The position numbers were made by a program, and so were the translations under genes. From Lucinisca nassula (Eukaryota; Mollusca; Bivalvia; Lucinida; Lucinidae): a stretch of 64,000 nt of DNA. The stretch lies in NCBI GenBank assembly GCA_963580285.1, contig CAUZLF010000259.1, positions 62,001-126,000 on the forward strand, read 5' to 3'. Shown here one piece after another: positions 641 through 62,715 of this stretch. The stretch's first letter is position 1, and the number at the start of each line of letters is the position of its first letter. The notes below the pieces were generated by a model that had not been told where the DNA came from, ran no database searches, and saw nothing but the letters and a program-made list of their open reading frames with translations.

Positions 641-1081
641 ATAAATAAGTTCTGAATAGTTAGATCCTTTTGAAGCAAAGAATACACCAAATAAACGAAA
701 ATAGCAGACTCGGTTTTATTGAGTCTGTTCATGACCAGTACTGAAAAGTGCTACACCGGCCACGCCCTCTAGCACCGGCTTAAGCAGAACTCTATTTTCA
801 AAATGATTCTAAATGAACTCAATGATCCCAAAGGACCAGAAAATATAATCTGCACTATGATGGATGTATGGGGAGACTTTTTACGGCCGCCACATGGCAC
901 AGCACCAGCTGCAGTGAAGATAAATAAGTTCTGAATAGTTAGATCCTTTGGAAGCAAAGAATACACCAAATAAATGAAAATAGCAGACTCGGTTTTATTG
1001 AGTCTGTTCATGACCAATACTGAAAAGTGCTATACCGGCCACGCCCTCTAGCACCGGCTTAAGCAGAACTCTATTTTCAAA
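641..1081 (-). repeat. tandem dimer related to the ribozyme-bearing units
   Basis: A 160-bp block at 641-805 is repeated at 920-1081, so the period is about 279 bp. The intervening 806-919 matches, in reverse complement, the segment 31010-31136 that lies just before the hammerhead-like motif at 31137; both carry the pieces GATCCCAAAGGA and AAAATATAATCT. The block also shares CTTCCAAAGGAT with the units at 30926 and 31185. Where the other units have the ribozyme motif, this subfamily has a different GC-rich segment with complementary GTGCTA/TAGCAC arms. Head-to-tail dimers of this size are typical of retrozyme-like elements. Confidence 0.55.
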
Positions 1082-2392: not shown

Positions 2393-3380
2393 ATATGGTT
2401 TAGGGGTGGGGCTCTGAACAGTTTCTGAGATATATAGCCTTTTGTGAAGTGGTGGGGTGGGGCAAGGCCCTGGCTTGACCCGAAAGACCTCCAGGTTGAC
2501 GTCAATGAATGTGTCTTATCATAAGGAACAACAATATAATATGGTTAGGGGATGGGATCTGTAAGGTTTCCAAGATATTATTGGGTCTTTGATGAAATGA
2601 AGGGGTGGGGCACGATTCCGGCACATCCTGGGGGACCCCCAGGTTAGTGTCAATGAATGCGTCATATCATAAGAAAGAAGAATATATAAGGTTTCGGGAT
2701 GGATGGCCTTTTGTGAAGTGGAGGGGTGGGGCAAGGCCCCAGCGCACCCAGGCAGACCCCAAAATTGGTGTCAATGAATGAGTCTCTTTATAAGGAACAA
2801 GAATATATAGGGTTTAGGGGTGGGGATCTGTTAGGTTTCCAAGATATTGGGTCTTTTATGAAATGGAGGGGGTGGGGCATGACCCCGGCACAAGCCAGGG
2901 GACCCCCAGGTTGGTGTCACTGAATGCGTCTTATCATAAGGAACAAGAATATATATGGTTTTGGGGTGGGGATCTAAATGGTTTCTGAGATATATGGCCT
3001 TTTGTGAAGAAGGGGTGGGGCAAGGCCCAGGCACACCCTGGGAGACCCCCAAGTTGGTGTCAGTGAATGTATATTTTCATAAGCAGGGATGTAAAATTCC
3101 ACTTGCCCGCTCGCATTTGCGAGTAAGTTTTAGGGCAGGGCGAGTAAGGTTTTCAAAACTGACCTTACTTTTTCTTCATTTTTAGAATCTAAATGAAAAG
3201 TTAAGACGATAAGGGCAAGTAAGTTTGAGGGGAATTTTACACCTCTGATAAGGAACAAGAATATATATGGTTAGGGGTGGGGATCTGTAAGGTTTCCAAG
3301 ATATTGGGCCTTTTATGAAGTGGAGGGGGTGGGGCATGGCCCCGGCTTAACCTGGGGGACCCCCATGTTGGCATTGAAGC
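2393..3380 (+). repeat. tandem array E, right part
   Basis: About six diverged units of 120-150 bp sharing GGGGTGGGG, AGATATAT or AAGATATT, TTTTGTGAAG or TTTATGAA, and AATGNGTCTTATCATAAGG. The array is interrupted by a MITE at 3084-3247. Several short frames on both strands come from the repeat composition and are not genes. Confidence 0.65.
3084..3247. mobile_element. small TIR element (MITE) in array E
   Basis: 164 bp bounded by imperfect inverted repeats CAGGGATGTAAAATTCC and GGAATTTTACACCTCTG (15 of 17 positions). It is flanked by ATAAG on both sides, and removing the element with one ATAAG restores the array unit TCATAAGGAACAAG. The CAGGG termini resemble hAT elements, but the visible duplication is 5 bp rather than 8. 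Confidence 0.7.
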
Positions 3381-4051
3381 ATATGGCTGAGAGACATTTA
3401 CTCAAGGAACATTTCTATAAAAGTTTTGTCAAAATATCTGCAATAACTTGGCAGCAAATGCCATTTTTCAATTTTCCCCATTATAAGTCTATGGAAAATC
3501 TAAGTTGCCATAGCAACCAAACTAAAGAGCCGAATTTCATAAAAAAACACAAAACCTGTAAAGGCAAATATGGTGAATATTTTCATAAACTCTCAGCCTC
3601 ATAGAGCATACGGTTTCTGAGGAGATGATTTTTTAAGTTTTTTTTTTTCTATTTTTTTTTCAATTTGGTTTCCATGGCAACCAATACAAATGAGCAGTAG
3701 GCCTAAAATCATATGGCAGATAGTAGATTACCGAAGGAATATTTCTATGAAAGTTTTGTCAAAATATCTGCAGCTGCTTGGCAGTAAATGCCATTTTTCA
3801 ATTTTCCCCATTATAAGTCTATGGAAACTCTAAGTTGCCATAGCAACCAAACTAATGAGCCGAATTTCACAAAAAAACACAAACTTTCAACCCCCCAATC
3901 CAAGGAAGCTACAGATGAAATTTGGGCCCAATCGGCCTAGCGGCTTCAGAGGAGATGTTTAAAAATGTTGACGTCACCAGACGCAGACGACAGACAACTG
4001 CCTATCCTATAAGCTCCCCTGGAGCCTTCGGCTCTGGTGAGCTAAAAAGTA
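3381..4051 (-). repeat. hairpin-head array element D, reverse strand (head and body)
   Basis: The right end, read in reverse, is TTTTTAGCTCACCAGAGCC followed by the palindrome-forming CGAAGGCTCCAGGGGAGCTTA, which is the head of the same family as the elements at 10992 and 12196. The body contains a duplicated block (about 3420-3560 and 3730-3880). The matching tail is at 536-585. Confidence 0.6.
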
Positions 4052-4236
4052 GTTCCAAACAGTGAAAAATAAAATTGATATCAGTCATCGTTTGAAACAG
4101 TGACAATATCGTTTTCAATTTCACTGAGAAATTTCAATATTGTATTGACAAGCATGTAAGAATATGTTAATTAATGACATCATTAGTTTTGAACAACTGG
4201 CCCCAAATAACTATTTGATGGATGCCCAAACCAAAA

Positions 4237-4795
4237 GGCCTCGCCCATCTTGGCTTGAAGAAATATATGGGCTGCATGATGCTTCCATGCAGAGCTGAAA
4301 CCTACCCTACACAGATATTGGCAAACTGCTTAGAGGATCTAAACCTTTCCAGGCAAAGTGGGGGCTTGTCGGAGCGTCCATGCTTATAAACCCTATTGGA
4401 TTCATTGGGTGACAGGGCTTGAGATGTCATTTCATCTCAATGTAGGGTAAAAGTCCCACAAAATTGGAAGCTACGTCTCCAAAATGACCTATAGTGTTGA
4501 TTGGATGTTAAACGTCCCCATCAACACTGTAAAGGTCATTTTGGAGATGCTGCTTCCAATTTTGTGGGACTTTTACCCAACATTGAGATGAAATGACATC
4601 TCAAGCCCTGCCACCAAATGAAACCAATCGGGTTTATAAGCATGGACTGACCGACTCGCACTGCTTTGCCTAGGCAGGCTTAGATCTTCTAAGCTGTTTA
4701 CCAGTACTCATGTGCGGGTTGGTTGCAGCTCTGCGTGGAAGCATCATGCAGCCCATTTATTTCTTCCAAGCCCGATGGGCGGGGGCTGTAGATAG
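4237..4795. repeat. two SINE C copies tail to tail (large palindrome)
   Basis: 4237-4515 is a forward copy of SINE C: CTTGAAGAAATATATGGGCT, GCATGATGCTTCCA, CATTTCATCTCAATG, CCAAAATGACC, then the GTTAAACGTC tail. 4516-4795 is the reverse complement of the same element, giving an imperfect palindrome of about 560 bp. Other C copies in the window are single. Confidence 0.75.
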
Positions 4796-9074: not shown

Positions 9075-10985
9075 TAATTGCAATCAAAAACTTCTGGAAA
9101 ACGTCTAAACAACTGTTGAACCTAAAGCCATCCAACACTATACCTACACTAATAATGAATAATAATTTCGCAGAAAGTGATCAGGAAAAGGCGAATTTTC
9201 AAGCTGGAAGGACGCCAATTTGACACCTATACACAAGAAAGATGATAAATCGAATCCTAGTAAATTTAGGCATATTTCCCTTCTAATCCCTTCTAGTAAA
9301 CTGATGAGACGTTGTTTCCACAGGCATATCAACAATTACATTTCTTATCATCAAATCCTAACTACGCTACAATCACGTCTAGTATAAGGTGATTTTACGA
9401 CCTACATACCAAGCTGTAGACAGTGGTAAAGAAGTTAGAGCCGTGTTGTGTGACTTCAGTGACGCATTCGACAAGACGCTGGCACAAAAGTTTACTCGAC
9501 AAGCTTAAGCCGGCCGCGGTAGCTGAGTCAGGTGCGCGTCTGATTGGTGATCAGGAGGATGCGGGTTCGAAACCTGCCGGGGTCAACAACAGTCTTTCGT
9601 GGAGATTGATCATGAGTCATTCTCTCCCTTCCGCTGATTCAAAGAAGGGCAGTTGTCAGTTTCTGGCGAAAGAATGTGCACTGTACTGGTTAACCGCTTA
9701 CGTATAAGCTTGCCCAGGAAAAGTGTGGATAGATAAACTGACCGGCTCAAAAATGACCTAAATAGTGTTGACTGGGCCGTTAAATTCCAATACAAACAAA
9801 CTCGCTAATCTCTCTGGTATATGCTGTTCAGAAGCCATTCTGAAGTGGTCTTGCAGCTATCTCTCAGGCCGACAGCAACGTGTTGTGCTGAACGGTCAGA
9901 ACTCACAATGGGCTCCTGTCCTTGCGGGCTTTCCCCGGGGATCTATCTTGGGACCACTCTTTTTTTTTATCTTTATGAATGACATCGTAACCTGAAAATG
10001 CTGTTCTGTTCGACCATTTGCCGACGACACCGGTCTTTATATTGTAGAGGAATGTCCGAATACTGTTGCTGGACTTCTTAACTCGCACCGCCAGTTTATA
10101 TTCGAATGGGCAGAAGATTGGCTTGTTAACTTCAATGCTAACAAAACTTCCCCCCTTTATCCTAACTAGAAAACTAGATCCCGTAATACACCCTCCATTA
10201 TTCATTAATAATACAATTCTGAACGAAACCAACAAACATAAACATTTAGGCCTTACCTTCTCAAGCAACTGCAAATGATCTTATCATATAGAGAATATTT
10301 CTAAAAGCGCATGGACAAGATTAACTCTGCTTCGAGTTCTGAAATACCGAGTCAGCCATAAATCACTGGAGAAAATGTACTTTGTAAATATACTAGAAGT
10401 CTAGAATACACCGATTCGGTTTGGGATAACTGTTCAAACCCAACCAAGAGACAACTTGGTGTTATTCACAACGAAACTGCAAGAATAATCAGTGGTGCAA
10501 CAAAGTTATGCAGTATTGAGAGACTGTACTCTGAACTAGTTTGGGATACACTCCAGGAAAGACGAAATAAGCACAAACCCATCATATTCTACAAAATCTT
10601 ACATGGACTAGCCCCAAATTATCTAGTCGAAGGTGCTCCGCCACTCGTTCAACACACGTCTCCCTATAACCTCAGAAACGCCGACCATTTTCATTCCTTC
10701 CGAGGGAACACCAACACCAACCTCTTTAGAGATTCCTTCCTTCCGTCTGTCATTCAAGCATGGGATAACTTACCAGGCGCCATGAAGCAGGCTTCTTCAG
10801 TAAAATACCAATTAAATGGAAACTTGAAAAGACCACTGACAAATTATAATGTCGGGTCACGCATAGGACAAATTCTCCATGCGCGCTTGAGAATGCAATG
10901 CAGTTCTCTCAATTCAGATCTTTTTCGCAAGAATATAGTGGATAGTCCGTCATTCCTATGTGGTAGCTTCGAAAGTGCAAATCAC
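9075..10985 (+). pseudogene. LINE reverse transcriptase pseudogene
   Basis: Frameshifted remains of an RT. The N-terminal side reads FWKTSKQLL near 9090 and LTPIHKKDDKSNPSKFR near 9215. Catalytic motif A is degraded (VRAVLCDFSDAFDK, about 9439-9480). After the SINE come LSGRQQRVVLNGQ and a damaged GxPxGSILGPL (about 9930-9960). PFADDTGLY at 10013 keeps the catalytic FADD. Later pieces are NETNKHKHLGLTFSS (about 10221) and the C-terminal SFLCGSFESANHFF just before 10986. Stops and shifts occur throughout, so it is inactive. The frame resumes at 14321. Confidence 0.8.
9508..9797 (+). mobile_element. tRNA-derived SINE with a SINE C-like 3' part
   Basis: The head 9508-9585 is tRNA-like: A-box-like TAGCTGAGTCAGG and B-box GGTTCGAAACC. 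The 3' half matches SINE C (GTACTGGTTAACCGCTTA, TTGCCCAGGAAAAGTG, AAAATGACCTAAATAGTGTT, GTTAAATTCCAATACAAAC). It is inserted in the RT frame of the LINE between LLDKLK and the block beginning LANLSG. Confidence 0.75.
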
Positions 10986-18348: not shown

Positions 18349-18888
18349 ACTTCATCTCATCGGTCGGGCTCATCGGAGTCTAACTGTTGGTTTTCTTTTG
18401 CTCCAGCATTTCAGTGGTTTCTTGCTGTCGAGTCCTCACCGTTGTCTCACCTCTGTGGTTCTTTGATTTTTGTGTTCACGGAGATGTTGCACTGATGAGT
18501 TAGGAGGCCTTCATGTGGACTGAACAAATTATTTGTCTAAATCGCGACGGAAGTAAGGGCGAGGATTGTGGCCACGTAAAATCGATTTAAGCCCCCCAGT
18601 GGAAATCTTCCACTGACCGTTCCAAGGCGGCTCTTCTGTGGCGATTTATTTATGTTGTTGTTTGTTACTTACTGTGTGTATCACTTGTGTCGTTTGGTTT
18701 TGGATGGCCATATGGCCATTTTGTGGGAAAGTAACTGTCCTTATGGCCTTCCTTTGTTTAGGTTTCCATTATGGTCTGGTCGCTTAATGTTTGTATTTCT
18801 TTCCCTTTGGTGTCTTTTATGGATGGAGTAAGTTAATTGTATCAATTCCTGATCTTTGTTTTACTTCTACTTCTATTTTAAAAAGGGA
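18349..18888 (+). repeat. repeat A, long form
   Basis: Includes the upstream part (ATCGGAGTCTAACTGTTGG, CTTGCTGTCGAGTCCTCACC, CACTGATGAGTTAGGAGG) and the common 3' part (GTGGCCACGTAAAATCGATT to TCTTTGTTTTACTTCTACTT). This is the layout seen downstream of the RT-like fragment at 28610-29120. Confidence 0.8.
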
Positions 18889-23597: not shown

Positions 23598-24090
23598 AAA
23601 ACAGAAATAAAATCTTTTTGTAATTACCGATTGAATTTGTGCCGATTCAATAGGCAAAATGGAAAGATTACAACCACCTTCTCTTTTGCGTTTAACTGGA
23701 ATTTTGTCAGAGAATTGGAGGCGTTTTAAGTAACAGTTTGAAATTTATTTGACAGCTACAGGAATCGCAGAAAAGGAAGAAAGTATAAAATCAGTACATT
23801 TCTTCATGTAGTTGGTCCTGGATGCTTGGAAATCTACAATGCATTTACCTGGGAAACAGATGGTGATGAAAAGAAACTTGCCAAAATCATGAAAAAATTT
23901 AAGGCATATTGTAATCCAAGAAAGAACTTGACATATTAAAGACACATTTTCAACACGAAAAAAAAAAAAAAAAAAAAAAAAACAGAAACAAAACAAAAAA
24001 AAAAAAAAAAAACACAAGCTGGTGAAAGCATAGATGCATATGTCACAGACAGAGAAACAAAGCCAAGTTATGTGAATTCGGCACATTGAA

Positions 24091-24151
24091 AAGTAGAAGT
24101 AAAACAAAGATCAGGAATTGATACAATTAACATACTCCACCCATAAAAGAC
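24091..24151 (-). repeat. repeat A fragment in gag
   Basis: AGTAGAAGTAAAACAAAGAT to CTCCACCCATAAAAGAC is the extreme 3' end of repeat A. The gag frame is recognisable on both sides, so it is inserted. Confidence 0.75.
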
Positions 24152-24373
24152 TCATTAATTAGGGACATTGTAGTATGCGGAATAATACGTGAAGTGGTGA
24201 GGGCTAGGCTGTTAAGAGACTCTGAACTTGCGTTAGAAAAGGCGAGAGATACCTTAGGGCGGTTGAAACTAGTGAGACACAGTTAAAAAGTCTCATATTC
24301 TAGACAGGTTTTTAATTATTTGGACCCCATTTTGATTTATATCAGTATTTGAATCGACTGTCTATTCGAAATT

Positions 24374-24528
24374 CGCAACATTGCAGTATGTTTCCTCTGG
24401 CTTTCTTTGCTGGATCATTACAGGGTCACTGATGAGGCTTTATTAGCCGAAACTACGTAGTATGACCCAACTTCTTTCTCATGAATGTTTTCATTGCTCT
24501 TAAAGGAACTCGGTTTTGATTTTTATTT
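24374..24528 (+). mobile_element. ribozyme-bearing unit 1
   Basis: About 155 bp inserted in gag, carrying the hammerhead motif. The same unit lies inverted at about 28205-28362; the two form an inverted repeat 3.7 kb apart. Shared pieces include CAGTATGTTTCCTCTGGC and TTGCTCTTAAAGGAACTC. Confidence 0.75.
24423..24468 (+). ncRNA. hammerhead ribozyme motif 1 (core intact)
   Basis: Stem I is GGGTCA (24423-24428) with TGACCC (24463-24468), 6 of 6 paired. Core CTGATGA is 24429-24435. Stem II is GGC (24436-24438) with GCC (24446-24448) and a 7-base loop. GAAA is 24449-24452. A minimal stem III is ACT with AGT around ACGT (24452-24461). The nucleotide at the cleavage site is A24462, giving a permitted GUA triplet. 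All conserved core positions of the family are present. Type I hammerheads with very short stem III are known from Penelope-like elements and retrozymes; such forms often cleave best as dimers. Activity is inferred. Confidence 0.85.
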
Positions 24529-24778
24529 GCTGAGGAGAAGTCAATATATTTTGTCCAAAAGAGAGGAAATTTTAAGCCCAAGCCGAAAACAGCAAAGAAA
24601 GGAGCATCTCGCCAACCTGCTAAACAGCTCAGTAAAGAACCAGCACCACTGTCATATAAGTTTCAAAATGTGGGCATACTCATGAACAAATGAAATGTCC
24701 TGCATATGGAAAGAAATGGAGAAATTGTTCAAAATTTAACCACTTTGCTAAGATGTGTAAAATAAGTTGTAGAAAGGG

Positions 24779-24894
24779 TTATCCTTTGGAAGCAAGGAAT
24801 ACACCACAGAACTGGAAAATATGGAGTGTACATGTTTTCTGGGCCAGACTAGCTAGTTTCGGCCATTTAGGCCTCATCTGTGGCACAAGACAGA
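24779..24894 (-). mobile_element. ribozyme-bearing unit 2 in gag
   Basis: Reverse-strand copy of the sequence at 31137-31255: on the forward strand CTTTGGAAGCAAGGAATACA, ATATGGAGTGTACATG, then the inverted ribozyme motif. Gag sequence resumes after it at ACAAGACAGAAATTACATGC. Confidence 0.7.
24841..24886 (-). ncRNA. hammerhead-like motif 4 (degenerate)
   Basis: On the reverse strand: GTGCCA (stem I), core CAGATGA, stem II GGCC/GGCC with a 5-base loop, GAAA, stem III ACT-AGCT-AGT, C at the cleavage position, TGGCCC (stem I). The core U4 is changed to A and stem I has one mismatch, so activity is unlikely. Confidence 0.7.
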
Positions 24895-24943
24895 AATTAC
24901 ATGCTTTGGATGGTAATAATCAGAACAGTGACGAATCAGACTA

Positions 24944-25246
24944 AGCCCCCCCCCCACCCCGCCTCCAGTGGAATTCGTTTCCGCTGACCGTTCCAAGGCA
25001 GTTCTTCTGTCGCGGTTTATTTTTGTAAGGGTTTGTCTTTGGGTGTTTATGTCGCTTATATTATTTTATTTTGGATAGCCTATTGGCCGTTTTGTGGGAT
25101 AGTAACTGTCCTTTTGGCTTTCCGCTATTGATGTTTCTATTGGGGTCTATTGTTTCGTGTTTGTGTTTCTTTCCCTTTGGTGTCTCTGATGGGAGCTGTG
25201 GGTAATTGTATTGATTCGGATCATTGCCTCCACTTCTATTTTTAAT
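24944..25246 (+). repeat. repeat A in the gypsy gag-pol junction
   Basis: A C-run, CGCTGACCGTTCCAAGGCAG, GTCGCGGTTTATTTTTG, TTTTGTGGGATAGTAACTG, ending CATTGCCTCCACTTCTATTT. It interrupts gypsy coding sequence between the gag knuckle and the protease. Confidence 0.8.
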
Positions 25247-28215
25247 ACGATCAGGACTTTGTGGAAAGTGTAGAAAGTGTATCTAGCAACGAGAAAGACT
25301 GGAAAATAGTTGCGGAAGTAAGTGGTAAGAAGCTTGAAATGAAATTGAACACTGGAGCTCAATGCAATGTATTACCTCTTGGAGTATGCGAAAGACTGAG
25401 TGACAGTCCTCTTACAAATCAAGAGTCAAATCAGGACATAAGCTAAACACAATTGGTAGGGCAGCACTACTTGTTGAGACTAAAGTTAGATACTCCCCAG
25501 TAGAATTTCAAGTTGTAGATCACAAAGCATAGCCTGTGTTAGGCTTACGGACTTGTTTAGGCTGACAGTTGATTAAAAGGATGTATACAGTGAACACTGA
25601 AGATCCTAATCTGTTGTTAAAAGAATATACAGTGATATATTTGAAGGTTTAGGATGCCCCCCCAGGGGATTATAACATTCAGCTTCAAGACAATGCTAAA
25701 CCAGTGATTAACCATCCTAGGAAGATACCATTTGCTCAAAGATCAAGAAAGAATTAGATAGAATGGTTGGAGATGGTGTGATTGAGGCATGGACTGAACC
25801 CTCAGACTAGGTTAATAGTATTGTTGTTACGGAAAAAGTAAATAAAAAGGATGTGAGAATATGCCTTGATCCTAGGGACTTGAATAAATATATATAAAAA
25901 AGAACATTATCCAATGAAAACTGTAGAGGAAGTGGCTGCACAGGTTGAGAGAGCTACTGTCTTCAGTAAGTTAGATGCATCTTGCGAATTTTGGCAGATT
26001 CGTCTCCGAAATAGCTGCACGAATTTAACTGTGTTCAACACTCCATTTGGCAGGTATAAATTCTTAAGAATGGCCTTGGCCTTGTAAGTTCGTCGGAAGT
26101 ATGGTAGAGAGCAGTTTCTCAGCTGTATGAGAACATGGAAGGATATGCAGTTATCGCTGACGATACTTTAGTTTAGGGTAGTAACAAGGAAGACCGCAAT
26201 AAGAGATTACGGGCCGGGTTACAGAAAGCTAGGCCTCGAATCTCAAACTAAACAAGTCAAAATATAAAATAGGACTTCCGGAAGTTACCTATGTTGGTCA
26301 TACATTTACAAAAAAGGGCTGAAAAGCTAGTCAAAGCCATGTGGAAGCCATATTAAAAATGGGAGAGCCACGGGACAAAACAGAGCTTATGAGATTTCAA
26401 GGGGTGATTAACTATCTTGGGAAGTATATTCCTAACCTATCTAGCTTGAATAAGTCTCTGAGAGAATTGCTTGAAAAAGATGTAGCTTGGCATTGGATAG
26501 GGCAGCATAGTCTTTGTTTTCAGCAAGTGAAGGAAGTCCTCAAAAAAGCGCCTGTTCTGAAATACTATGATCTGGACTAAGGTGAAATAACTCTTCATGT
26601 GCTTCAAAACATGGACTAGGTGCGTGCATTATGCAGAAAGGTCAGCCAGTAGCTTATGGATCCAGATCATTGACAAAAACAGAATTATGCACAGATTGAG
26701 GAAATGTATGGTTGACAAAATTTCATAGCTATATTTTTGATCAGAAAACAAATGTTGAAAACTATAAAAAAAAAACGTTGTATCTTTGTCCACCCAGGAT
26801 AGTCAAAATGATGGAAAAAGTCCAGAAATATGACTTACATGTAATGTTCAAACCGGGGAAAGAAATGTTCATTAGTGACACACTGAGCAGAAAACCGTTA
26901 AAAACAACAGTTGGAGAAGAAAGCTTTAGAGAGTATACAGTATTCAGTTTGGAAAATTTACCAGTTAGCCAAGAAATTATGTCAAACTGAAATGGATCCT
27001 GTGATGATTAAGATGAAACATATAATTTAAAGGGTTGGTCACAAATTAAGATGGATGTTGATCCATGCTTGAGAGAATACTGGAATTTTAGAGATGAGCT
27101 TAGTGAAAGGGATGGACTCATACTGAAAGGTGAAAGAATCATAAAAGTATGCGTAAAGAAATGACGGATAAAATTCATAATGTAAGCCATCTTGGGTACA
27201 GAAATGTATTCGTAGAGCTCGTGAAATTGTATTTTGGCCGGGAATAAATGGGCAAATCAAAGACAAAGTTGCATCATGTGAAATCTGCAATGAGTTCAGA
27301 AAATCGCAAGCAAAGCAACGTTTGAAACCACATGAGATTCCAGATAGGTCATGGCAAATTTTAGGGACTGATGCATTTGAACTGGATGGACAAACCTATT
27401 TAGGTCTAGTGGATTATTACTCGAATTTTTTTAAGTCTCTAAAATCAGTGGAACAGGAAGTGAACCCATAATAGCTTCGTTGAAACAGAACTTTGTTAGA
27501 CATAGGATTCCTGAGAAACTTATCAGTGATAATATGGGTGGATATATAAGTCAGCTATTTGCTGATTTTGTGAAAACAGTACCAGTTTAATCATGTCACA
27601 TCTTCGCCAAGATATCCTAGATAAAGTGGAATGGCAGAAAGGACAGTGCAAACGGTTAAAAAATTGTTGAAAAAAAAAGCAAAACGGAATGGATCTGATC
27701 CGTATCTTACTCTTCTGGAACTTAGGAATACACCCATTGAAGGTCTTGGATCACCTGTTAAGCTATTGTATGGACGCAGAACTATGTCACTTTTACCTGT
27801 ACAACCCTCATTGAATCCTGACAAGGTGACAGTAAATGTTCCTTTGGTTTTAAATGGAATACAGCAAGAACAGAAATATTATTATGACAGGAACACTAAG
27901 CCTTTAAAACCGCTAGATCGATGTGAACAACTAGGGGTTAGATTGGACAGGCAACTATGGGAGCCAGGGGTTGTTGAATCAAAATGCCAGGAACCAAGGT
28001 CATATAAGGTTAAAATGGAATCAGGTTCACTCTTAAGGAGAAATAGAGAACATTTATTGAAAACGAAAGAAAGAAGGAAAACAGAAAGGCAAACCGATAT
28101 CGGCGATGTGTGTACACAAACAGAACAACAGAACCAGGGACAAGAACAACTGTTGCCTGAGGTACAAACGTTACCAGGGCAGAGAGTAACATCAAGTGGT
28201 AGAATAGTGAATAAA

Positions 28216-28364
28216 AATCAAAAATGAGTTCCTTTAAGAGCAATGAAAATATTCATAAGAAAGAAGATGGGCCATACTACGTAGTTTCGGCTAATAAAGC
28301 CTCACCAGTGACCCTGTTATGATCCGGCAAAGAAAGCCAGAGGGAACATACTGCAATCTGCAAA
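28216..28364 (-). mobile_element. ribozyme-bearing unit 3 at the end of pol
   Basis: Inverted relative to unit 1 (24374-24528) and about 90% similar by eye. Pol coding sequence resumes after it as KRFEDFVMSLEMD near 28371, so the unit is an insertion. Confidence 0.75.
28269..28314 (-). ncRNA. hammerhead-like motif 2 (one core change)
   Basis: Reverse strand: GGGTCA and TGGCCC (stem I, one G-U pair), core CTGGTGA where the family has CTGATGA (A6 to G), stem II GGC/GCC, GAAA, minimal stem III ACT-ACGT-AGT, A at the cleavage position. The single core change should abolish or sharply reduce cleavage. Confidence 0.75.
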
Positions 28365-28609: not shown

Positions 28610-29120
28610 TTCCTTTTTTGGATGGTGATGTTCCTCGTGCGCCATCCTATGGCGTTTATAGTTCGCAATTAATTCGATTTGCTAGCGTGTGTAGTCATGT
28701 AACTGACTTCAACACTCGTAATAAATTATTAACGGCTAAACTTCTTAATCAGGCTTATCGGTACCATAAACTACGCAAAGCCTTTCAAAATTTTATAGAC
28801 GCCATCCTGATTTAATTTCAAAATTCAATATTGGACTTAAATCTCTTCTGCAACAAGGTCTATCGGAACCCGAATTTTATGGTGACTTAGTATATTAATT
28901 CAGAAAAATATATAACCGCAATGACTTCAGCACCCAATTTCGTAAAATCATTCTTCGATATAAAAAGATTGGGTACAACATGGATGTTATACGACCGACT
29001 GCATGCATGATAGTTAACCCAATCACGGTTGGCAACTTTGCTCCCCTCTTTAATTGCACGCCGGTGGGTCAGGCCACAGATTATACGACGGTTGCAACGT
29101 AAATGCTTATTGAGAATTAG
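28610..29120 (+). pseudogene. reverse-transcriptase-related C-terminal fragment
   Basis: Begins DGDVPRAPSYGVYSSQLI then RFASVCSHVTDFNTRNKLL and YRYHKLRKAFQNF. Such sequence follows the catalytic domain in a class of reverse-transcriptase proteins common in bivalve and coral genomes. It is frameshifted after about 28815, and traces continue to 29120. I cannot place it securely; a Penelope-like origin is one possibility. A second, more decayed copy is at 32150-32545 on the reverse strand. In both cases repeat A follows, so A is probably this element's 3' tail. Confidence 0.6.
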
Positions 29121-29132
29121 AGAGATCTAATT

Positions 29133-29687
29133 CAAGGTAATGTTGGTTGGTGCCTGATGCTCTGTCTCTGGTCGGGCCCATCGGAGTCTAACTGTTGGTT
29201 TTCTTTTGCTCCAGCATTTCGGTGATTTCTTGCTGTCGAGTCCTCACCGTTGTCTCACCTCTGTGGTTCTTTGATTATTTGTGTTCTAGGAGATGTTGCA
29301 CTGATGAGTTAGGAGGCCTTCATGCGGACTGAACAAATTGTTTGTCTAAATCGCGACGGAAGTAAGGGAAAGGATTGTGGCCACGTAAAATCGATTTAAG
29401 CCCCCCCCCCCCCCAGTGGAAATCTTTCCACTGACCGTTCCAAGGCGGTTCTTCTGTGGCGGTTTGTTTGTGTTGTTGTTTGTTACTTACTGTGTGTGTC
29501 GCTTGTGTCTTTTTATTTTGGATGGCCATATGGCCATTTTGTGGGAAAGTAACTGTCCTTATGGCCTTCCTTTGTTTAGGTTTCCATTGTGGTCTGGTCG
29601 CTTCGTGTTTGTGTTTCTTTCACTTTGGTGTCTTTGGTGGGTGGAGTGGGTTAATCGTATCGATTCCTGATCTTTGTTTTACTTCTA
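29133..29687 (+). repeat. repeat A, long form, downstream of the RT-like fragment
   Basis: Most complete copy: ATCGGAGTCTAACTGTTGG, CACTGATGAGTTAGGAGGCC, a C-run (29401-29414), CTTTCCACTGACCGTTCC, TTTTGTGGGAAAGTAACTG, ending TTGTTTTACTTCTAC. The two overlapping frames within it have no support as genes. Confidence 0.85.
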
Positions 29688-30088
29688 CTAACAATGAGAT
29701 GTTTGCTGTATAAGTGAAGTGTATTTGTGCTTAGTGATTTATTTCATATAAGTGTTTATTCTTATTCTAATTTTTGGAGTACAGTATAGTTTCCCCACAC
29801 ACAAAATTCCAGAGGAATAATGTAATGGAAATTATGTACTGCATTGCAAAATGTTTATTTTACTGCAAATGATTATCAGCAGCTTGTCATTCACAGGTTA
29901 ACAGCACACTGTGAGGCCATGAGAACCAGACGCTCCTTGTTATCAAATGATTTATAACTTTGTACCAGAAACTGACTCCCCATTCATGAGAATAAGACTT
30001 TTCATGATTGTAGTAGTACTAAAATTTAAATGCAGTTATTTTTTAAGATCATATTTCAATAAATAAGTTTTAGATTTTAAGAGGGGAG

Positions 30089-30485: not shown

Positions 30486-30925
30486 TAATTGATTTTGTAT
30501 ACTTATATGTGGTTTGTATCATTTGTATGATTCCATGATTTGCTGTTTATGTTTGCCATTACCATTCAATATGAATATGTTAATGCAAATAAAAGTATTG
30601 TCTATTGTCTTGAAAATCTGATGAAATCGCAATGAAACCATGTTAACTCTCTTTAGCAAGAGCTTGGTGGTACTACATGTAAGGCAGCATTTCGCTGTAG
30701 AGAGGGCTGTAGTTGATGACCACATTTGTCATTCAGCCACCAAGTTTGCTCCATGTGCTACAGAAGGCCCAGATCAGCTTACTACGTTATATTGATTACC
30801 TAAACTTCATAAGAGACCAAAGCACGGATTATTAAAAAATCAAGCTCTTGTACCACAACTCAAACTTCATGTTTTACTGCCATAAAAAAATACGATTAAA
30901 TACTGCGAAAAAGTCTGCGAAAAAA
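30486..30925. other. no feature recognised
   Basis: AT-rich DNA without exon-like frames. Confidence 0.3.
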
Positions 30926-31268
30926 AACATGTACACTCCATATTTTTCACTTCTGTGGTGTATTCCTTGCTTCCAAAGGATAACCCTTTTATAGAACATA
31001 TTTAACTTCACTATAGCTGGTGTGTGGGAATGTGTGGCGGCGGTAAAACGTCTCCCTGCCCTACATCATAGTGTAGATTATATTTTCTTGTCCTTTGGGA
31101 TCATTGGTTCCATTGTGGAATTTTGAAAATATCTGAGGGTCACCGATGAGGCCTAATTGGCCGAAACTAGCTAGTCTGGCCCAGAAAACATGTACACTCC
31201 ATATTTTTCACTTCTGTGGTGTATTCCTTGTTTCCAAAGGATAACACTTTTATAGAACATATTTGAAA
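30926..31268 (+). mobile_element. ribozyme-bearing unit 4 with duplicated flank
   Basis: ACATGTACACTCCATATTTT to AAAGGATAACCCTTTTATAG occurs at 30926-31000 and again at 31185-31255, 258 bp apart, with the hammerhead-like motif just before the second copy. This looks like a truncated head-to-tail dimer of a monomer of about 258 bp. Confidence 0.7.
31137..31182 (+). ncRNA. hammerhead-like motif 3 (one core change)
   Basis: Stem I is GGGTCA (31137-31142) with TGGCCC (31177-31182), one wobble. The core is CCGATGA (31143-31149), with U4 changed to C. Stem II is GGCC (31150-31153) with GGCC (31159-31162). GAAA is 31163-31166. Stem III is ACT-AGCT-AGT, and C31176 is at the cleavage position, the common GUC triplet. 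Confidence 0.75.
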
Positions 31269-31332
31269 GATCAGGGAGAACTATGTTTTGGTCTATAAAA
31301 AATTCTAATGAAGTTTTAAATAAATTATAAAA

Positions 31333-31852
31333 AGTAGAAGTAAAACAAAGATCAGGAATTGATACAATTAACTTACTCCATCCATAAAAGACACCAAATG
31401 GAAAGAAATACAAACATTAAGCGACAAGACCATAATGGAAACCTAAACAAAGGAAGGCCATAAGGACAGTTACTTTCCTACAAAATGGCCATATGGCCAT
31501 CCAAAATAAAAAGACAAAAGTGATACACACAGTAAGTTACAAACAACAACATAAATAAATCGCCACAGAAGAGCCGCCTTGGAACGGTCAGTGGAAGATT
31601 TCCACTGGGGGGCTTAAATCGATTTTACGTGGCCACAATCCTCGCCCTTACTTCCGTCGCGATTTAGACAAATAATTTGTTCAGTCCGCATGAAAGCCTC
31701 CTAACTCATCAGTGCAACATCTCCGTGAACACAAAAATCAAAGAACCACAGAGGTGAGACAACGGTGAGGACTCGACAGCAAGAAACCACTGAAATGCTG
31801 GAGCAAAAGAAAACCAACAGTTAGACTCCGATGGGCCCGACCAGACGTTTTC
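31333..31852 (-). repeat. repeat A, long form, reverse strand
   Basis: From AAGTAGAAGTAAAACAAAGA through CCTTGGAACGGTCAGTGGAA and ACTTCCGTCGCGATTTAGAC to ACAGTTAGACTCCGATGGGC. Confidence 0.8.
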
Positions 31853-36057: not shown

Positions 36058-36095
36058 GGCCCCTGTCCATCAGGGCCTGAAGAAATAGACTGGGA
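36058..36095 (+). repeat. SINE C 5' scrap at the LINE junction
   Basis: GGCCCCTGTCCATCAGGGCC then TGAAGAAATAGACTGGG resembles the first 35-40 bp of SINE C. The LINE follows at once, so the LINE probably inserted into, or recombined with, a SINE copy. Confidence 0.45.
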
Positions 36096-36099
36096 CAAA

Positions 36100-37583
36100 G
36101 TTCCCACTCTCGCAAAATCACATGCATCTGTTGCAAAACCCTGGAGCATATATTAGTTAGCAACATTAACAAGCACCTAGCCTCTGAAAGCATTCTTGCT
36201 GACTGCCAGAATGGTTTCCAAAGTCGAAGGTCTTGTGAAACTCAATTAGTTCAGTTCTACCATGACATAGTGAGCAATCTGGATGGGGCCATTAATCGTG
36301 GCCACAAACAGACTGACCTGATTATCATGGATTTTGCCAAGGCCTTCGACAAGGTACCTCACAGGAGGCTATTGTACAAACTAGATCATTATGGGATTAG
36401 AGGATCCACACTTAAGTGGGTTAGCTCATGGCTCTCTGGACGCACTCAACAAGTTGTACTTGACGGCCAAGCGTCGGATCCAGTCCCTGTTTTGTCCGGT
36501 GTCCCACAAGGTTCGGTACTTGGACCGGTCCTTTTCTTGATATTTATCAATGATCTTCCTGATAATATCAGGTCATCTGTTCGCTTGTTTGCTGATGATT
36601 GTGTTTTGTATAGGAACATATATACTACTTCTGACTGTCTTATCTTACAAGATGACCTGGATAGCCTAGCACGTTGGGAGGCCGATTGGCAAATGAAGTT
36701 CAATGTGGCCAAATGTCATTCAATGAGGGTGTCACGGCACCCTCCAGACAAGCAGATTAAATTCAATTACTCATTACATCAGCATACTTTGGAACATGTC
36801 CAATCCGCAAAATATCTTGGTATCACCATTACTGATAATCTTGATTGGGGTCAACATATTTCTGAGATTACCTCCAAAGCAACTAGGACATTAGGGTTTC
36901 TTAGACGCAATTTGGCTTTTGCACCTAGGCAGACAAAGGATGTTGCATACAAAACTTTGGTTAGACCTCAACTAGAGTATGCATCACCTGTTTGGCACCC
37001 CCATGTTAAAACTCAGGTTCAACAGGTTGAGAAGGTTCAGAGGACGGCTGCCCGATGGACCTGCAGGCGATGGCGGAACAGAAGCAGTGTTGGTGAAATG
37101 CTCGATGAGCTGGAGTGGCCATCCTTGGAGGCCCGTCGCGAGCGGTCCTCTTTAACCTTCTTTTATAAGATACACTCTGACACAGTGTCTCTTAATAAAG
37201 ATAAATACTTGACCCCTGTGACTACTTCAACTCAAACAAGGGCATCAAAACTAAACAACAGTCAATATCGTAGGTACCAGGCCTATAGTGATGCCCTGAA
37301 GAATTCTTTCTTCCCTAGAACTATTCCTCAGTGGAATAGTTTTCCCTCCTCTGTGGTAAATGCCAAAACTGCAGAGGAGTTCAAAGCCCGCATGGTGTAG
37401 ATTGGGATCCAGAGGTGTGCGTTTTAGTACACCTCTGAAAGCAGATTGTAAATAGTTTTAAGAACTCATCCAGTGGATGTGTTTTTTTTTTTTTTTTTGC
37501 TAAATTCTAAATTTAGCGCACCACCCAACTGAGGTAATGGCCAGGTTTGACCGACTCAGTATATGAAGATAGATAGATAAATC
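36100..37583 (+). mobile_element. 5'-truncated LINE with intact RT frame
   Basis: Retains the RT domain, the post-RT region, a 3' UTR containing GTACACCTCTGAAAGCAG and a T-run, and a terminal ATAG microsatellite (about 37566-37580). It lacks the endonuclease and the RT N-terminus. Related pieces are at 5550-5811 (-) and 6572-7173 (+). Confidence 0.85.
36111..37400 (+). CDS. LINE reverse transcriptase, N-terminally truncated, open frame
   Basis: 430 codons without a stop, of which 376 follow the first ATG at 36270. The frame begins inside the RT fingers (TCICCKTLEHILVSN). Motif A is MDFAKAFDKVPH, motif B GVPQGSVLGP and motif C RLFADDCVLY, with both catalytic Asp kept. The post-RT part has RTLGFLRRNLAF, LVRPQLEYASPVWHP and FFPRTIPQWNSFPSSV, then a stop. 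The family copies genomic DNA at a nick using its own RNA. This copy lacks the endonuclease, so it is probably a dead recent insertion. The preserved frame suggests youth rather than host use. It looks CR1/Jockey-like, but exact clade placement is uncertain. Confidence 0.85.
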   Translation, partial: RKITCICCKTLEHILVSNINKHLASESILADCQNGFQSRRSCETQLVQFYHDIVSNLDGAINRGHKQTDLIIMDFAKAFDKVPHRRLLYKLDHYGIRGSTLKWVSSWLSGRTQQVVLDGQASDPVPVLSGVPQGSVLGPVLFLIFINDLPDNIRSSVRLFADDCVLYRNIYTTSDCLILQDDLDSLARWEADWQMKFNVAKCHSMRVSRHPPDKQIKFNYSLHQHTLEHVQSAKYLGITITDNLDWGQHISEITSKATRTLGFLRRNLAFAPRQTKDVAYKTLVRPQLEYASPVWHPHVKTQVQQVEKVQRTAARWTCRRWRNRSSVGEMLDELEWPSLEARRERSSLTFFYKIHSDTVSLNKDKYLTPVTTSTQTRASKLNNSQYRRYQAYSDALKNSFFPRTIPQWNSFPSSVVNAKTAEEFKARMV

Positions 37584-43924: not shown

Positions 43925-44838
43925 GTGGAAAGGCTTGAAAACAGGATGATTAGGGGTACATTTTGGTTCTCTTTCATTTGCTGCAGTCTATTGGGCTGTT
44001 TTACAGAAGAAATTTTTTTTGATACATGTAACTTGCCCTCATCCATCTTAGGCCCCCAAAGGCGAGCTATGTTGTCCTCTGACAACTCGTTAATTTTTGC
44101 AATCTACAATGCTTCTTTGTGATTCTTTTTTTACTACTTCAAGCCGGAGATATTGAAACCAATCCAGGTCCTAAAAATGAACACGATCTTTCAATTTTGC
44201 ACTTAAACATCAGGAGTATTAGAAACAAATTAGATTTTATACATGTACTTGATAATTTTTCTGATTTTAATATTTTGTGTTTTACGGAAACCCACTTAGA
44301 TGCATACGTTCCTACAGACATGCTTTCTCTTTCCAATTGTTACTGTTCACCATACCAGAAGGACAGAACAAATCATGGTGGGAATGTTATGGCATACGTA
44401 AACTCAAGCCTGCTCCATGTGAGAAGACTGGATCTTGAGGTCTTTTTTGCAGAATCAATGTGGATAGAAATCAAGGTAAAGAATGAAATATATTTAATAG
44501 GTTTATTTTATAGCCCTTCTACAGCAGATGCTCAGTTCTTTAACAATCTAAATTTAAACATTGAAAGAGCCCTTGAACATTCCAAAAACCTTATTATTGT
44601 TGGAGGCCTAAATGAAGACCAACTTAATCCAATTTTTCAAAACTTAAAGGATGTATTACTTATCAACTCCATGTCAAATGTTATTAATGAACCAACCCGA
44701 CAACAAGCACTTCTTGACCCAATTATTATTCCAGAGGACTTGCCTATTCTTGACTCTGGGACCATAGCTGTTCCAGCCAACATTAGTGACCATAAAGCAA
44801 CATACTTAACATTACCCTTTCAATATGACACAGAAAAC
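43925..44838 (+). pseudogene. LINE N-terminus, 2A-like peptide and AP endonuclease
   Basis: Codons from 43925 (MERLENRMIRGTFW...) run to a stop at 44122; the next frame continues from 44119, so one frameshift separates them. The second frame begins LFLLLQAGDIETNPGP (2A-like at 44146-44172), then the endonuclease: LHLNIRSIRNKLDF, FTETHLD, and SDHKATY near the end. The usual GDxN box reads VGGLNEDQLN, so the catalytic Asp is replaced by Gly. The domain ends at the foldback. AP endonucleases of this type nick target DNA to prime reverse transcription; this copy should be inactive. Confidence 0.8.
44146..44172 (+). other. 2A-like ribosome-skipping motif
   Basis: Encodes GDIETNPGP, preceded by LFLLLQA. 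It fits the consensus D-(V/I)-E-x-N-P-G-P, where the ribosome omits the Gly-Pro bond. 2A-like sequences near the N-terminus are known in several APE-type non-LTR retrotransposons. Confidence 0.85.
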
Positions 44839-45312
44839 TGCCTATTAATTTAATCTAGAATGTATTTTCAGACATAGAAAGTGACACTTTTTTTCAAAGA
44901 AAATTTTGTGCATTATGCAATGCTTTTTTGGTGCTGCCATTGAAAAAGTCAAGAATACATATACTGTAGTGGGGGTTAGCAGCTAAGTCTGTGCCTGGCA
45001 CGGGGTTAGCAGCTAAGTCTGTGCCTGGCACGGGGTTAGTAGCTAACCCCGTGCCAGGCACGGACTTAGCTGCTAACCCCCACTACAGTATATGTATGGG
45101 GATAGCAGCTAAGTCTGTGCCTGGCACGGGGTTAGCAGCTAACCCCGTGCCAGGCACAGACTTAGCTGCTAACCCCCACTACAGTATATGTATTCTTGAC
45201 TTTTTTAATGGCAGCACCAAATAGCATTGCATAATGCACAAGATTTTCTTTGAAAAAAAAGTGCCACTTTCTATGTCTGAAAATACATTCTAGTTTAAAT
45301 TAATAGGCTGTT
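44836..45312. mobile_element. 477-bp foldback element with nested palindromes
   Basis: The outer arms AACTGCCTATTAATTTAA-TCTAGAATG and CATTCTAG-TTTAAATTAATAGGCTGTT, and about 120 further bp on each side, are reverse complements. The centre is built of smaller palindromes of GCAGCTAAGTCTGTGCCTGG and its complement, arranged in two blocks joined by CACTACAGTATATGTAT. It splits the LINE between the endonuclease and the linker. A 77-codon frame across it is a by-product. Confidence 0.9.
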
Positions 45313-45342
45313 AGAAGGTGTTTTTAATAGATTGTTTTTTTT

Positions 45343-47816
45343 TTTATATATAAGAGGGCAAATTTTACATTACTGAAACAAAAAATATCTAACTTTGATT
45401 GGACTTGTCTAAGGGAAGGAACTCTGGATGAAGCCTGTTCTAAGTTCAATAATAATTTTCTTAACTTTGTTAACTTGTGTGTTCCATCAAAAAATGTACT
45501 TATCAGACCGGATGACAAACCTTGGTATGATTGTGAAATAAGAAGAGCGTCTAGAAAAAGAGACAGGTTAAAATGTAAATTCATCAAATCAGGAAATCAA
45601 AACATTTTGGCAAGGTACAAGTTTTTTCGCAATAAAGTTAATAATTTAAAACGGCATGCAAAAGAACAATTTTTCAATAATTTGGAATTTTCCATATCTG
45701 ACTTTCACTCAAATGACAAAAAACAATTTTGGAAGGTTGTACGTCACTTTGTTAAAGGAAATAGCAGCTCTTCTTCAATTCCACCTTTCAATTCCTATCC
45801 GGTTACTGGTCAAAACGACTTCTGTTTTTCAACCGAAGATAATGCTGAATTGTTGAATAAATATTTTACATCTATCTCCACTGTAAATGATGAAAATGCT
45901 ATATTGCCTGCTTTTGAATATAAATATCAAAATAGAATATCTTGTATTACATGTACCCAAGACGAAGCTGCTTCCCTAATTGAACTTTTAAATCCCAACA
46001 AAGCAACAGGGCCAGATGGAATTAGTAATGTTGAAAGCTGTTTCTAGAGAAATAGCTGTACCCCTTAGCATTCTTTTCAACAGATCTTTTAGGGAAGGTA
46101 AATTTGGAGAAATTTATAAATATTCTAATGTAATACCGTTGCCCAAAAAGGGAGATAACTCTGATCCTTCAACATTTAGACCATTTTCACTCTTAAGTAA
46201 GGTTGGTAAGCTGCAGGAAAGAATAGCTTTTAAACATATTTTTTACTTTTTACATGAAAATGATTTACTCTATAAATATCAATCTGGGTTTTTGCCTAAT
46301 CATTCTACAACTTTCCAACTTATTGACATAAACATGTACCATCACATCTGTCAAACTTTCGATAATAATCACTATTCTTGCATGATTTTCTTAGACGTTT
46401 CTAAGGCTTTTGATAGAGTGTGGCACACAGGACTTATCTTTAAATTAAAACAGTTTGGCATAGAAGGGGAATTACTCGAATGGATAAGTGACTATTTAAG
46501 TGGGAGAAACCAAAAAATTGTTATAAGAAACAGCTCATCAAGCTTGAGGAGAGTTACTGCTGGGGTTCCTCAAGGTTCTGTTCTTGGCCCTTTATTATTT
46601 TTGGTTTATGTCAGTGATATATCTGAATCATTACTTAGTCTTACATGTTTATTTGCTGATGATAGCTCTCTATTGTACTCTGCAGCAAACATCCAAGACA
46701 TTGAAGGTATTATCAATCATGACTTACGTATGTTAGTCAGCTGGGCTGCTCAGTGGTTAATCAATTTTAATCCGCTTAAAACTGAAGCAATGCTTTTTAC
46801 CCTAAGATTTATTGAATCACTACCAAATTTAATTTTTGACGGTACACCTATCAAATTAGCAACAGAACACAAACATTTAGGTTTAACATTTAGCAATAAT
46901 GGACAATGGCATAACCATATTGAAAATATTCTTAAAAGTTCTTCTAAAGTTATTGGTATAATGAGGAAACTCAAATATACATTCAGTCGTGTTGCTCTAA
47001 ACCAAATATACCTTTCATACTTACTGCCCATCATCAAGTATTTTTGTGTTGTATGGGACGGTTGCACAGAAAGAGACATTGAGTCTCTCCAAAAACTTCA
47101 GAACGAAGCTGCCTGCATTGTTACAGGCTTAACAAGATCAGTTTCCTTAGATAACCTTTATAAAGAGAGTGGGTGGGTGTCACTTATCGAAAGACGGAAG
47201 CAGCAGAAACCTATCTTCATGTGTAAATCAGTTAATGGTCTTGTTCCTTCATATGTATCCGATTTAATTCCACCGCTTGTTGGAGAAACAAATGCCTATA
47301 ATTTGCGAAATAATAACAATATTACTGTTCCCTTTTGCAGGACAGAAATTTCTCGAAAATCATGTATTCCTTCGTCTATTTCGGCATGGAATTCGCTTGA
47401 CATAGAATTACGTAATTCACCGTCTCTGTCTAGCTTTAAGTACCAGTTGAAAAAAAACCCAAAATAATTCAATAGTTCCTACATACTACAAAGCTGGTAG
47501 TAGACGCATCTCAGTCCTACATGCAAGAATTAGAAATAACTGTAGTAATTTATTTTTTGATCTGTATATTAATCATCTGTCACCAAGTCCTACATGCAGT
47601 TGTTCTGAAAAAGTTGAAGATGCAGAGCATTATTTCTTTGGATGCTCACACTGTATAAATGAACGAATTGCATTGTTTCGATCCACGAGGAATTTCAATC
47701 CACTAAATATTAATAAACTTTTGTTTGGAAATGAATATCTCACACCAGAAGAAAATGTCACTATTTTCACAGCCGTCCAAACTTTTATCAAGAACACCAG
47801 AAGGTTTACTGATTAG
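45343..47816 (+). pseudogene. LINE linker, reverse transcriptase and C-terminus (three frames)
   Basis: Frame 1 (45343-46047): ANFTLLKQKISNFDW, PWYDCEIRRASRKRDRLK and the start of the RT (NPNKATGPDGIS). Frame 2 (about 46027-47467) has the RT: VIPLPKKGD, SGFLPNHSTTF, motif A FLDVSKAFDRVWH, motif B GVPQGSVLGPLLF and motif C CLFADDSSLLY with both Asp. Then come HKHLGLTFSNNGQWHNH and SISAWNSLDIELRN. Frame 3 (47475-47816) has the C-terminal CSCSEKVEDAEHYFFGC zinc-knuckle-like motif and the stop. Two frameshifts therefore break an otherwise well preserved polymerase. Confidence 0.85.
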
Positions 47817-55183: not shown

Positions 55184-55412
55184 GTATTGCGACAAACAGG
55201 CCAAAGGAAACAGTGCAAACCCAGATCAGACTGCTCCATAAAATCCAATCGGGGTTTACACAGTTTGCCATGCCATCTGTACTTTTTGGAATCCATGCAG
55301 GATGATGATACAGTTTCGGTAAAATTTTAGAAAATTACAGCAAGTCCTCCAGTTGTCTGAATTTTTAGGATTTTTACGATAAATATGGTATGTGTCCTGA
55401 CTCTTCTTTCAG

Positions 55413-62488: not shown

Positions 62489-62715
62489 TATCAGTAGCTT
62501 GTACAGTAAAAATCCTAAAAAATTGGACACATCAAAGACTTGCAGTAATTCTCATAAATATGTTTTTCACAATCCAGCAAGAAGTTCAAAAGGTGCAGAA
62601 CCAATAGCAAACAGTGGAGACTCCGATCAGACTGATCCTACAGGAGCATCTGATCTGGGACTGCACTGTTTGCTTTGGCCTGCCTGTCCCAATACTTAGG
62701 CCCCTGGTGCTCATT

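Follow-up and report, generated by a model that had tools for sequence, protein, structure and literature searches.

A retrozyme-like hammerhead repeat family of Lucinisca nassula shares a stem-loop with a candidate Penelope-like helper

The window, its repeats and its hammerhead

The window, that is, the whole 64,000-nt stretch of the Lucinisca nassula genome analysed here, contains LINE-type reverse transcriptase and endonuclease open reading frames (ORFs) at 36081-37397 and 44083-47816 (+) and an ankyrin-repeat and SOCS-box ORF at 55369-56703(+). A 24-bp minisatellite of 48 copies is located at 62709-63853, and a tRNA-like match at 9513-9585(+) scores 29.6 against an Rfam threshold of 29. 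The ankyrin-SOCS ORF matched 405 proteins at E ≤ 1e-30; among the best 120 of these 405, the ten best relatives share 62-81% identity and the nearest named ones come from Mercenaria (42%) and Mya (39%). This fits an earlier interpretation made from the DNA letters (the sequence-only reading), which had called the repeat bivalve-like.

A broken Ty3/Gypsy relic extends over 24131-28227(+), with gag, protease, reverse transcriptase, RNase H and integrase pieces in order; the assignment combines one Pfam match above cut-off and weak matches for the others with piece order and motif reading. The relic is the host site of three short repeats and no part of them. Copy A1 of retrozyme family A, at 24289-24530(+), comprises 0.63 of a 383-bp unit, is truncated at its 5' side and stops at the fixed 3' end of the family. 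Copy A2, at 28210-28357(-), is 93% identical and has the same fixed 3' end. The third, B2 of family B, at 24760-24882(-), is 5'-truncated at its hammerhead. Copy B1, at 30924-31264(+), consists of 1.31 units of 261 bp, lies inside a Penelope-like element copy and includes at 31004-31103(+) a stem-loop module common to the families. Family C is represented by 1.58 units of 279 bp at 641-1081(-), with a 3' end and module as in B. An initial view of the element as a repeat of 148 bp, fixed at either end, was rejected because the second copy proved to be 5'-truncated.

Fragments of a Penelope-like element, hereafter called the helper for its putative role, are also present as 3' tails at 24087-24151(-) and 31331-31845(-), both 97% identical, and at 18362-18872(+) (99%) and 29100-29689(+) (93%). 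A further tail at 24961-25242(+), 75% identical, belongs to an older or different relative. The repeats at this position and elsewhere had been read as MITEs; that reading was rejected, as they match the Penelope-like 3' part.

A complete type I hammerhead, its core intact, lies in copy A1 at 24423-24468(+). It reads, 5' to 3', GGGTCA, CTGATGA, GGCT, the loop TTATT, AGCC, GAA, ACT, the loop ACGT, AGT and A, followed by TGACCC, with the predicted cut 3' of A24462, between 24462 and 24463. Stem I has 6 bp, stem II 4 bp and stem III 3 bp, or 4 counting A-T. Every piece of the complete core named in the sequence-only reading is present at these positions and its perfect 6-bp stem I was confirmed; stem II is likewise real, with a length of 4 bp in place of the 3 bp (GGC/GCC) it had been given. 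The type I consensus consists of a CUGAUGA...GAA core, A15.1-U16.1, H17 at the cut and three stems of which stem I is open, and the window hammerhead has all of these features. Self-comparison identified four hammerhead copies in the window. Only that of A1 is intact; the others have core lesions in A2 (CTGGTGA; 28269-28314, -), B1 (CCGATGA; 31137-31182, +) and B2 (CAGATGA; approximately 24843-24884, -). The A and B hammerheads differ by a T-A versus C-G pair in stem II, a change affecting both partners of the pair. Their stem III loops differ as well, with the palindrome kept.

A descriptor scan of both strands found one type I hammerhead with a CTGANGA/GAAA core in the window, that at 24423-24468. 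In 300 first-order Markov windows the descriptor matched once with stems of at least 5/3/2 and never at 6/4/3. The covariance-model scan suggested earlier as a check was not supportive: at its own thresholds Rfam left the hammerhead unreported, its sole match being the tRNA. With permissive filters the best matches were Hammerhead_3 at 20.3 bits (cut-off 48.5) and RAGATH-1 at 17.3 (56.3), cut-offs that are library thresholds and no defining trait of a type I hammerhead.

The predicted stability of the ribozyme fold varies with context. The hammerhead is not the lowest-energy monomer of the 46-mer alone (-11.7 vs -12.5) and in the piece 24380-24527 it is 5.4 kcal/mol less stable than the optimal fold; in the full 383-nt unit, forcing it costs 0.5-0.8 kcal/mol. 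Stem III forms a perfect ten-letter palindrome, ACTACGTAGT, at 24452-24461(+), through which, on these models, two ribozymes could pair into a double hammerhead. This structure is the lowest-energy cofold of two 46-mers for A1, A2 and B1 and not for B2, hence for three of the four window copies. The energy gain of the dimer was equalled by 23 of 500 shuffles, the double-hammerhead structure by none of 500.

Family C is a tandem relative of B with a different stretch of about 90 nt at the position of B's hammerhead. No hammerhead was found in it, and Rfam assigns it to none of its ribozyme families. Compared with shuffled sequences, the module of family C folds better on either strand (z -2.65 to -3.32), which in itself does not prove a function. 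Separately, two exact hammerhead patterns gave no matches in viral contigs and a looser pattern gave four loci; judged by stem count, L001, an IMG/VR contig with a possible hammerhead at 3313-3360(+) (stem I 6, stem II 4), and perhaps L002 could be hammerheads.

Family A insertions across the genome

Family A was searched for in the assembly (2,926,205,003 bases) with window positions 24300-24560 as the query. This gave 2604 first-look candidates, 40 of which were scored and, apart from the query itself, are 95-97% identical. The 37 stretches fetched around the scored places amount, with the window, to 229,037 bases. The repeat is dispersed, as had been proposed, with the copy at 24289-24530 having relatives across the genome. 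Family A forms tandem repeats with a 383-bp period, which lies within the 150-450 bp of the retrozyme class, and the window copy is one partial unit. Its GC content, 0.376 in one unit, is below the 50% that bounds the class, and the printed insertion ends suggest that LTR, PBS and PPT are absent. Family A thus fits as a new family of the known metazoan non-LTR retrozyme class, its likeness to the mussel families being one of description. The sequence-only reading had pointed to type I hammerheads with a very short stem III in Penelope-like elements and retrozymes, and the tandem, retrozyme-like genome copies agree with this.

The window and the 37 stretches were searched for hammerheads with a tolerance of up to 9 substitutions and no indels. 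Among 80 family A copies, 79 have an intact core, 71 the core and all 13 pairs, and 58 are identical to that of the window; of five family B copies, three have an intact core and two of these also all pairs. The intact-core descriptor finds 75 hammerheads in the same 229,037 bases. These figures overstate intactness, because loci were selected by similarity to a query that contains the hammerhead and reaches the 3' end. Within this selection, the pairing is conserved in most genomic copies (71 of 80).

The anatomy of the insertions was derived from a list of 46 arrays, from which L016 556-594 had been dropped as the helper's own module. Family A arrays away from a locus edge end within 4 bases of one position in 40 of 45 cases, bearing in mind that query-based locus choice could miss single-unit insertions with an earlier end. 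By a second script, 40 of the 44 free ends lie no more than 4 bases from this position, with 36 exact matches, and families B (5/5) and C (1/1) have fixed 3' ends as well. The fixed end of family A lies 65 nt 3' of the predicted cut. It is followed by TTTATT in 35 of the 40 insertions, which indicates that the true end of family A is at that position. The 5' ends are scattered over the whole unit and array lengths range from 0.37 to 4.77 units. Among the family A arrays listed there is no pile-up of 5' ends at the hammerhead cut, so that cleaved linear RNA is unsupported as the template.

The five ends off this position belong to L013 (twice), L022, L040 and L049. Those of L040 and L049 both fall 13 bases short of it: the L040 array is joined tail to tail with an inverted copy, and beyond the end of the L049 array comes the 3' end of family A itself, inverted. 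Such inverted joins are expected if both DNA strands primed copying. In L013, at 3242-4745, a helper tail and two retrozyme pieces form a chain; the joins fall at fixed ends and share a few letters, as would result from template jumps.

The ends of two insertions can be read directly, since both lie inside copies of the Penelope-like helper: one of family A in L038 and one of family B at window 30924-31264. The window insertion has, by eye, a 4-7 bp duplication. In the retrozyme class, target-site duplications, when present, exceed 4 bp; 33 of the 40 fixed-end insertions have no flank match of at least 4 bases that might represent one. None of the 24 insertion ends printed has a poly-A tail.

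Units of one locus resemble each other more than those of different loci. Across 19 full units from 10 loci, the mean distance is 0.0157 for the 12 same-locus pairs, including one whose units come from two separate arrays, versus 0.0247 for the other 159 pairs, and none of 5000 label shuffles was as low. In L025, two units share eight variants absent from all others of the 19. L026 and L016 have one private shared variant each, clear private variants thus being confined to these three loci. The likeness of units within one insertion fits repeated turns on one circular template; it could instead stem from later unequal crossing-over within the array.

A candidate Penelope-like helper and the shared stem-loop

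ORFs adjoining some of the arrays looked Penelope-like. One of them, used as a query, yielded 24,605 candidates, of which 150 were scored; nearly all scored copies are 97-98% identical and several lie about 4170 bp apart. L070 (G000:C12:33999700-34008600, -) contains tandem 4170-bp units, 99.9% alike, in the tandem pseudo-LTR arrangement. The coding part consists of pieces of 177, 149, 280 and 499 aa that share a reading frame and are separated by TGA codons, and later L070 copies have additional breaks. The 149-aa piece and its lead read DLIYLITU-RATNCNMQYVGQTNRMLKTRLNEH, with TGA written as U, and this piece is a putative GIY-YIG endonuclease part. By eye, the endonuclease-like part stands ahead of the reverse transcriptase, which is itself preceded by a CDC motif. 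Profile searches gave little: Pfam matched RVT_1 weakly (E 0.084) and found no GIY-YIG match in the endonuclease part, an NCBIfam search covering three of the four pieces lent no support, and the reverse transcriptase matched PDB sequences at chance level. SECIS_1 matches at the reverse transcriptase stop in both L070 units with 24.1 bits, below the cut-off of 35 (E 0.43).

Judged by its motifs, the helper is probably a Penelope-like element, and its piece order presumably corresponds to that of the Naiads of Craig et al. 2021. Naiads are reportedly permuted Penelope-like elements with a GIY-YIG endonuclease before the reverse transcriptase and a CxC linker. They are also said to adopt a tandem pseudo-LTR arrangement and, in clams, to use TGA as selenocysteine with a SECIS. 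Naiads are not known to have canonical hammerheads. The L070 element, judged by its sequence, looks like a selenoprotein-coding Naiad, and the 8.9-kb L070 stretch scanned contains no CTGANGA...GAAA hammerhead core.

The non-coding part of the helper has 89 matches in the window and the 37 stretches. Of these, 52 cover the stem-loop module alone; at least one of these (L016) belongs to a helper copy, and the others presumably to retrozymes. Among the other 37, 23 end at 2679-2690 (L070 reverse-complement coordinate), the fixed 3' end of the helper. In a second script, 23 of 43 helper fragments end at one place and 20 elsewhere.

A stem-loop, GTGTGGCGG..GTAAAA.GTCTCC, was found 28 nt past the fixed 3' end of the helper, and families A, B and C carry it past their own fixed ends. 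The distance from fixed end to motif start is 27 nt in A, 28 in B, 24 in C and 28 in the helper. The three families match the helper's non-coding part at one and the same place, over 39 nt (92%) in A, 25 nt (92%) in B and 42 nt (88%) in C. The module scores 58.1, 37.4 and 54.5 bits, respectively, against maxima of 39.2, 30.1 and 32.8 bits among 300 shuffles per family. When one helper sequence is aligned with three of A, three of B and one of C, the predicted structure has an 8-pair outer stem and a 5-pair inner stem, with 96.2% of cells pairing. Four of the 13 pairs are changed on both sides; slid controls give 0-2, and 1 of 500 shuffles reaches 4. The count of further pair types was reached by 94 of 500 shuffles. 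As the sequences are few and related, this covariation constitutes support and not proof. The best reading is that families A, B and C bear the helper's stem-loop as a borrowed putative start signal for reverse transcription.

Proposed mode of copying and comparison with known systems

On the basis of these observations, the window feature is probably a truncated copy of a retrozyme that is cut by its hammerhead and whose circle is copied by a Penelope-like helper enzyme. Full tandem family A copies would be transcribed and the multimers cut into unit RNAs by the type I hammerhead, acting singly or doubly via the palindromic stem III. A host ligase may then close the unit RNAs into circles, as the hammerhead and published animal retrozymes suggest. 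Reverse transcription of the circle, primed by cut target DNA, would begin at one internal position, ...TTTTTATT, 65 nt downstream of the hammerhead cut, and the enzyme would run for up to almost five turns before falling off. Repeated turns from one start would account for the insertion pattern seen, in which units are in tandem, the 3' end is constant and the 5' ends vary. The enzyme most likely comes from the 4.17-kb Penelope-like element, which is favoured because its own insertions end 24-28 nt before the same stem-loop. Given that the scanned helper stretch lacks a hammerhead core, it would be the parasite, rather than the helper, that uses the ribozyme. Copy A1 is a dead fragment: comprising 0.6 of a unit, solitary and within a broken Ty3/Gypsy element, it cannot itself yield a unit circle. 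The claim that the repeat is or was transcribed holds good for the family, whose genome copies bear marks of retrotransposition in their fixed 3' ends, scattered 5' ends and tandem units; self-processing of the RNA, proposed along with it, is a prediction from the sequence.

It is possible, if unlikely, that the retrozyme is copied from an uncut multimeric transcript, with the hammerhead idle in copying and the tandem units inherited from the source array. Multi-unit insertions do read across the cut, and in vitro, RNA of the Anolis element PAc with a mutated hammerhead was inserted no less well than wild-type RNA (PMC11167929), which weighs against cleavage being required in the copying step. 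However, units are more alike within one insertion, as expected from one circle, and hammerheads are intact in most copies seen, a bias of locus selection included.

That LINE or Gypsy machinery moves the retrozyme, the stem-loop reflecting common descent without function, seems improbable. While the window does contain LINE-type ORFs and its copies sit in a Gypsy relic, the 24 printed insertion ends lack poly-A tails, the one tail-to-tail insertion (L040) is expected of two-strand priming, and the fixed end is equally spaced, in element and helper, before a structure with compensatory changes. It is highly doubtful that the feature is a dispersed minimal hammerhead relic from a Penelope-like element's own pseudo-LTR, with no retrozyme involved: the units are 383-bp tandem repeats and the abundant Penelope-like element has no hammerhead core in the 8.9 kb scanned, although minimal type I hammerheads are reported in such pseudo-LTRs and as dispersed motifs in the excerpts of PMC7761336 used here. 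A chance match to the hammerhead pattern, for which only the silence of Rfam at its thresholds speaks, can be dismissed in view of the Markov simulations (0/300 at 6/4/3) and is already refuted by the conserved copies on many contigs, in accordance with the sequence-only reading, which had considered chance co-occurrence very unlikely.

More generally, we lean towards the interpretation that animal hammerhead retrozymes are parasites of hammerhead-less, permuted (Naiad-type) Penelope-like elements through a shared stem-loop, which would place the start of reverse transcription 24-28 nt upstream of itself, their circles being copied repeatedly; family C would keep the signal without a recognisable hammerhead, perhaps with another processing ribozyme instead. 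The 2020 paper PMC7229834, in its parts considered here, describes metazoan non-LTR retrozymes in coral, mussel and axolotl and proposes Penelope-like helpers, named a strong candidate, because the two kinds of element have type I hammerheads and tandem copies in common and occur together. With a common signal, the identity of the moving enzyme becomes directly testable using a single protein and a single RNA and, if true, tandem insertions are explained as repeated turns on an RNA circle. The mapped fixed 3' end, the likeness of units within an insertion and the stem-loop common to retrozymes and a Penelope-like element appear, at the level of sequence, to be new here; an incomplete literature search found no report of a start signal common to a retrozyme and its helper.

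Among known systems, the retrozymes of Mytilus galloprovincialis, as characterised in the same parts of PMC7229834, share with family A the type I hammerhead, tandem units, low GC content and many copies. Their units are approximately 350-390 bp, compared with 383 bp in family A, and about 5000 hammerheads are given for the mussel, compared with 40 scored of 2604 candidates here. The mapped fixed 3' end and the stem-loop common with a candidate helper are specific to the present description. Penelope-like elements and Terminons have minimal type I hammerheads (Cervera and de la Pena 2014 and Lunse 2017, via excerpts of PMC7761336 and PMC6466107) that likewise combine a very short stem III with a palindromic loop and likely act as dimers. 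In contrast to these, which lie in the pseudo-LTR of a coding element, the hammerhead here belongs to a small tandem element. The helper resembles Naiads in its endonuclease-like part before the reverse transcriptase, CDC motif, in-frame TGA codons, tandem units and 24,605 first-look candidates, a likeness of motifs and not of a tree.

A parallel in geometry is PAc (PMC11167929), whose hammerhead cuts 26 bp after the start codon. Its reverse transcription initiates inside the template, 111-118 bp from the beginning of the ORF and, by subtraction, 85-92 nt past the cut. The PAc enzyme cuts and extends both strands, and RNA comprising the initial 172 nt of the ORF is required. Family A would resemble PAc in combining a cut, an internal start downstream and RNA beyond the start, which is needed in PAc; in family A, the predicted order is cut, 65 nt, start, 24-28 nt and stem-loop. 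PAc is autonomous and has its own hammerhead, whereas family A is non-autonomous.
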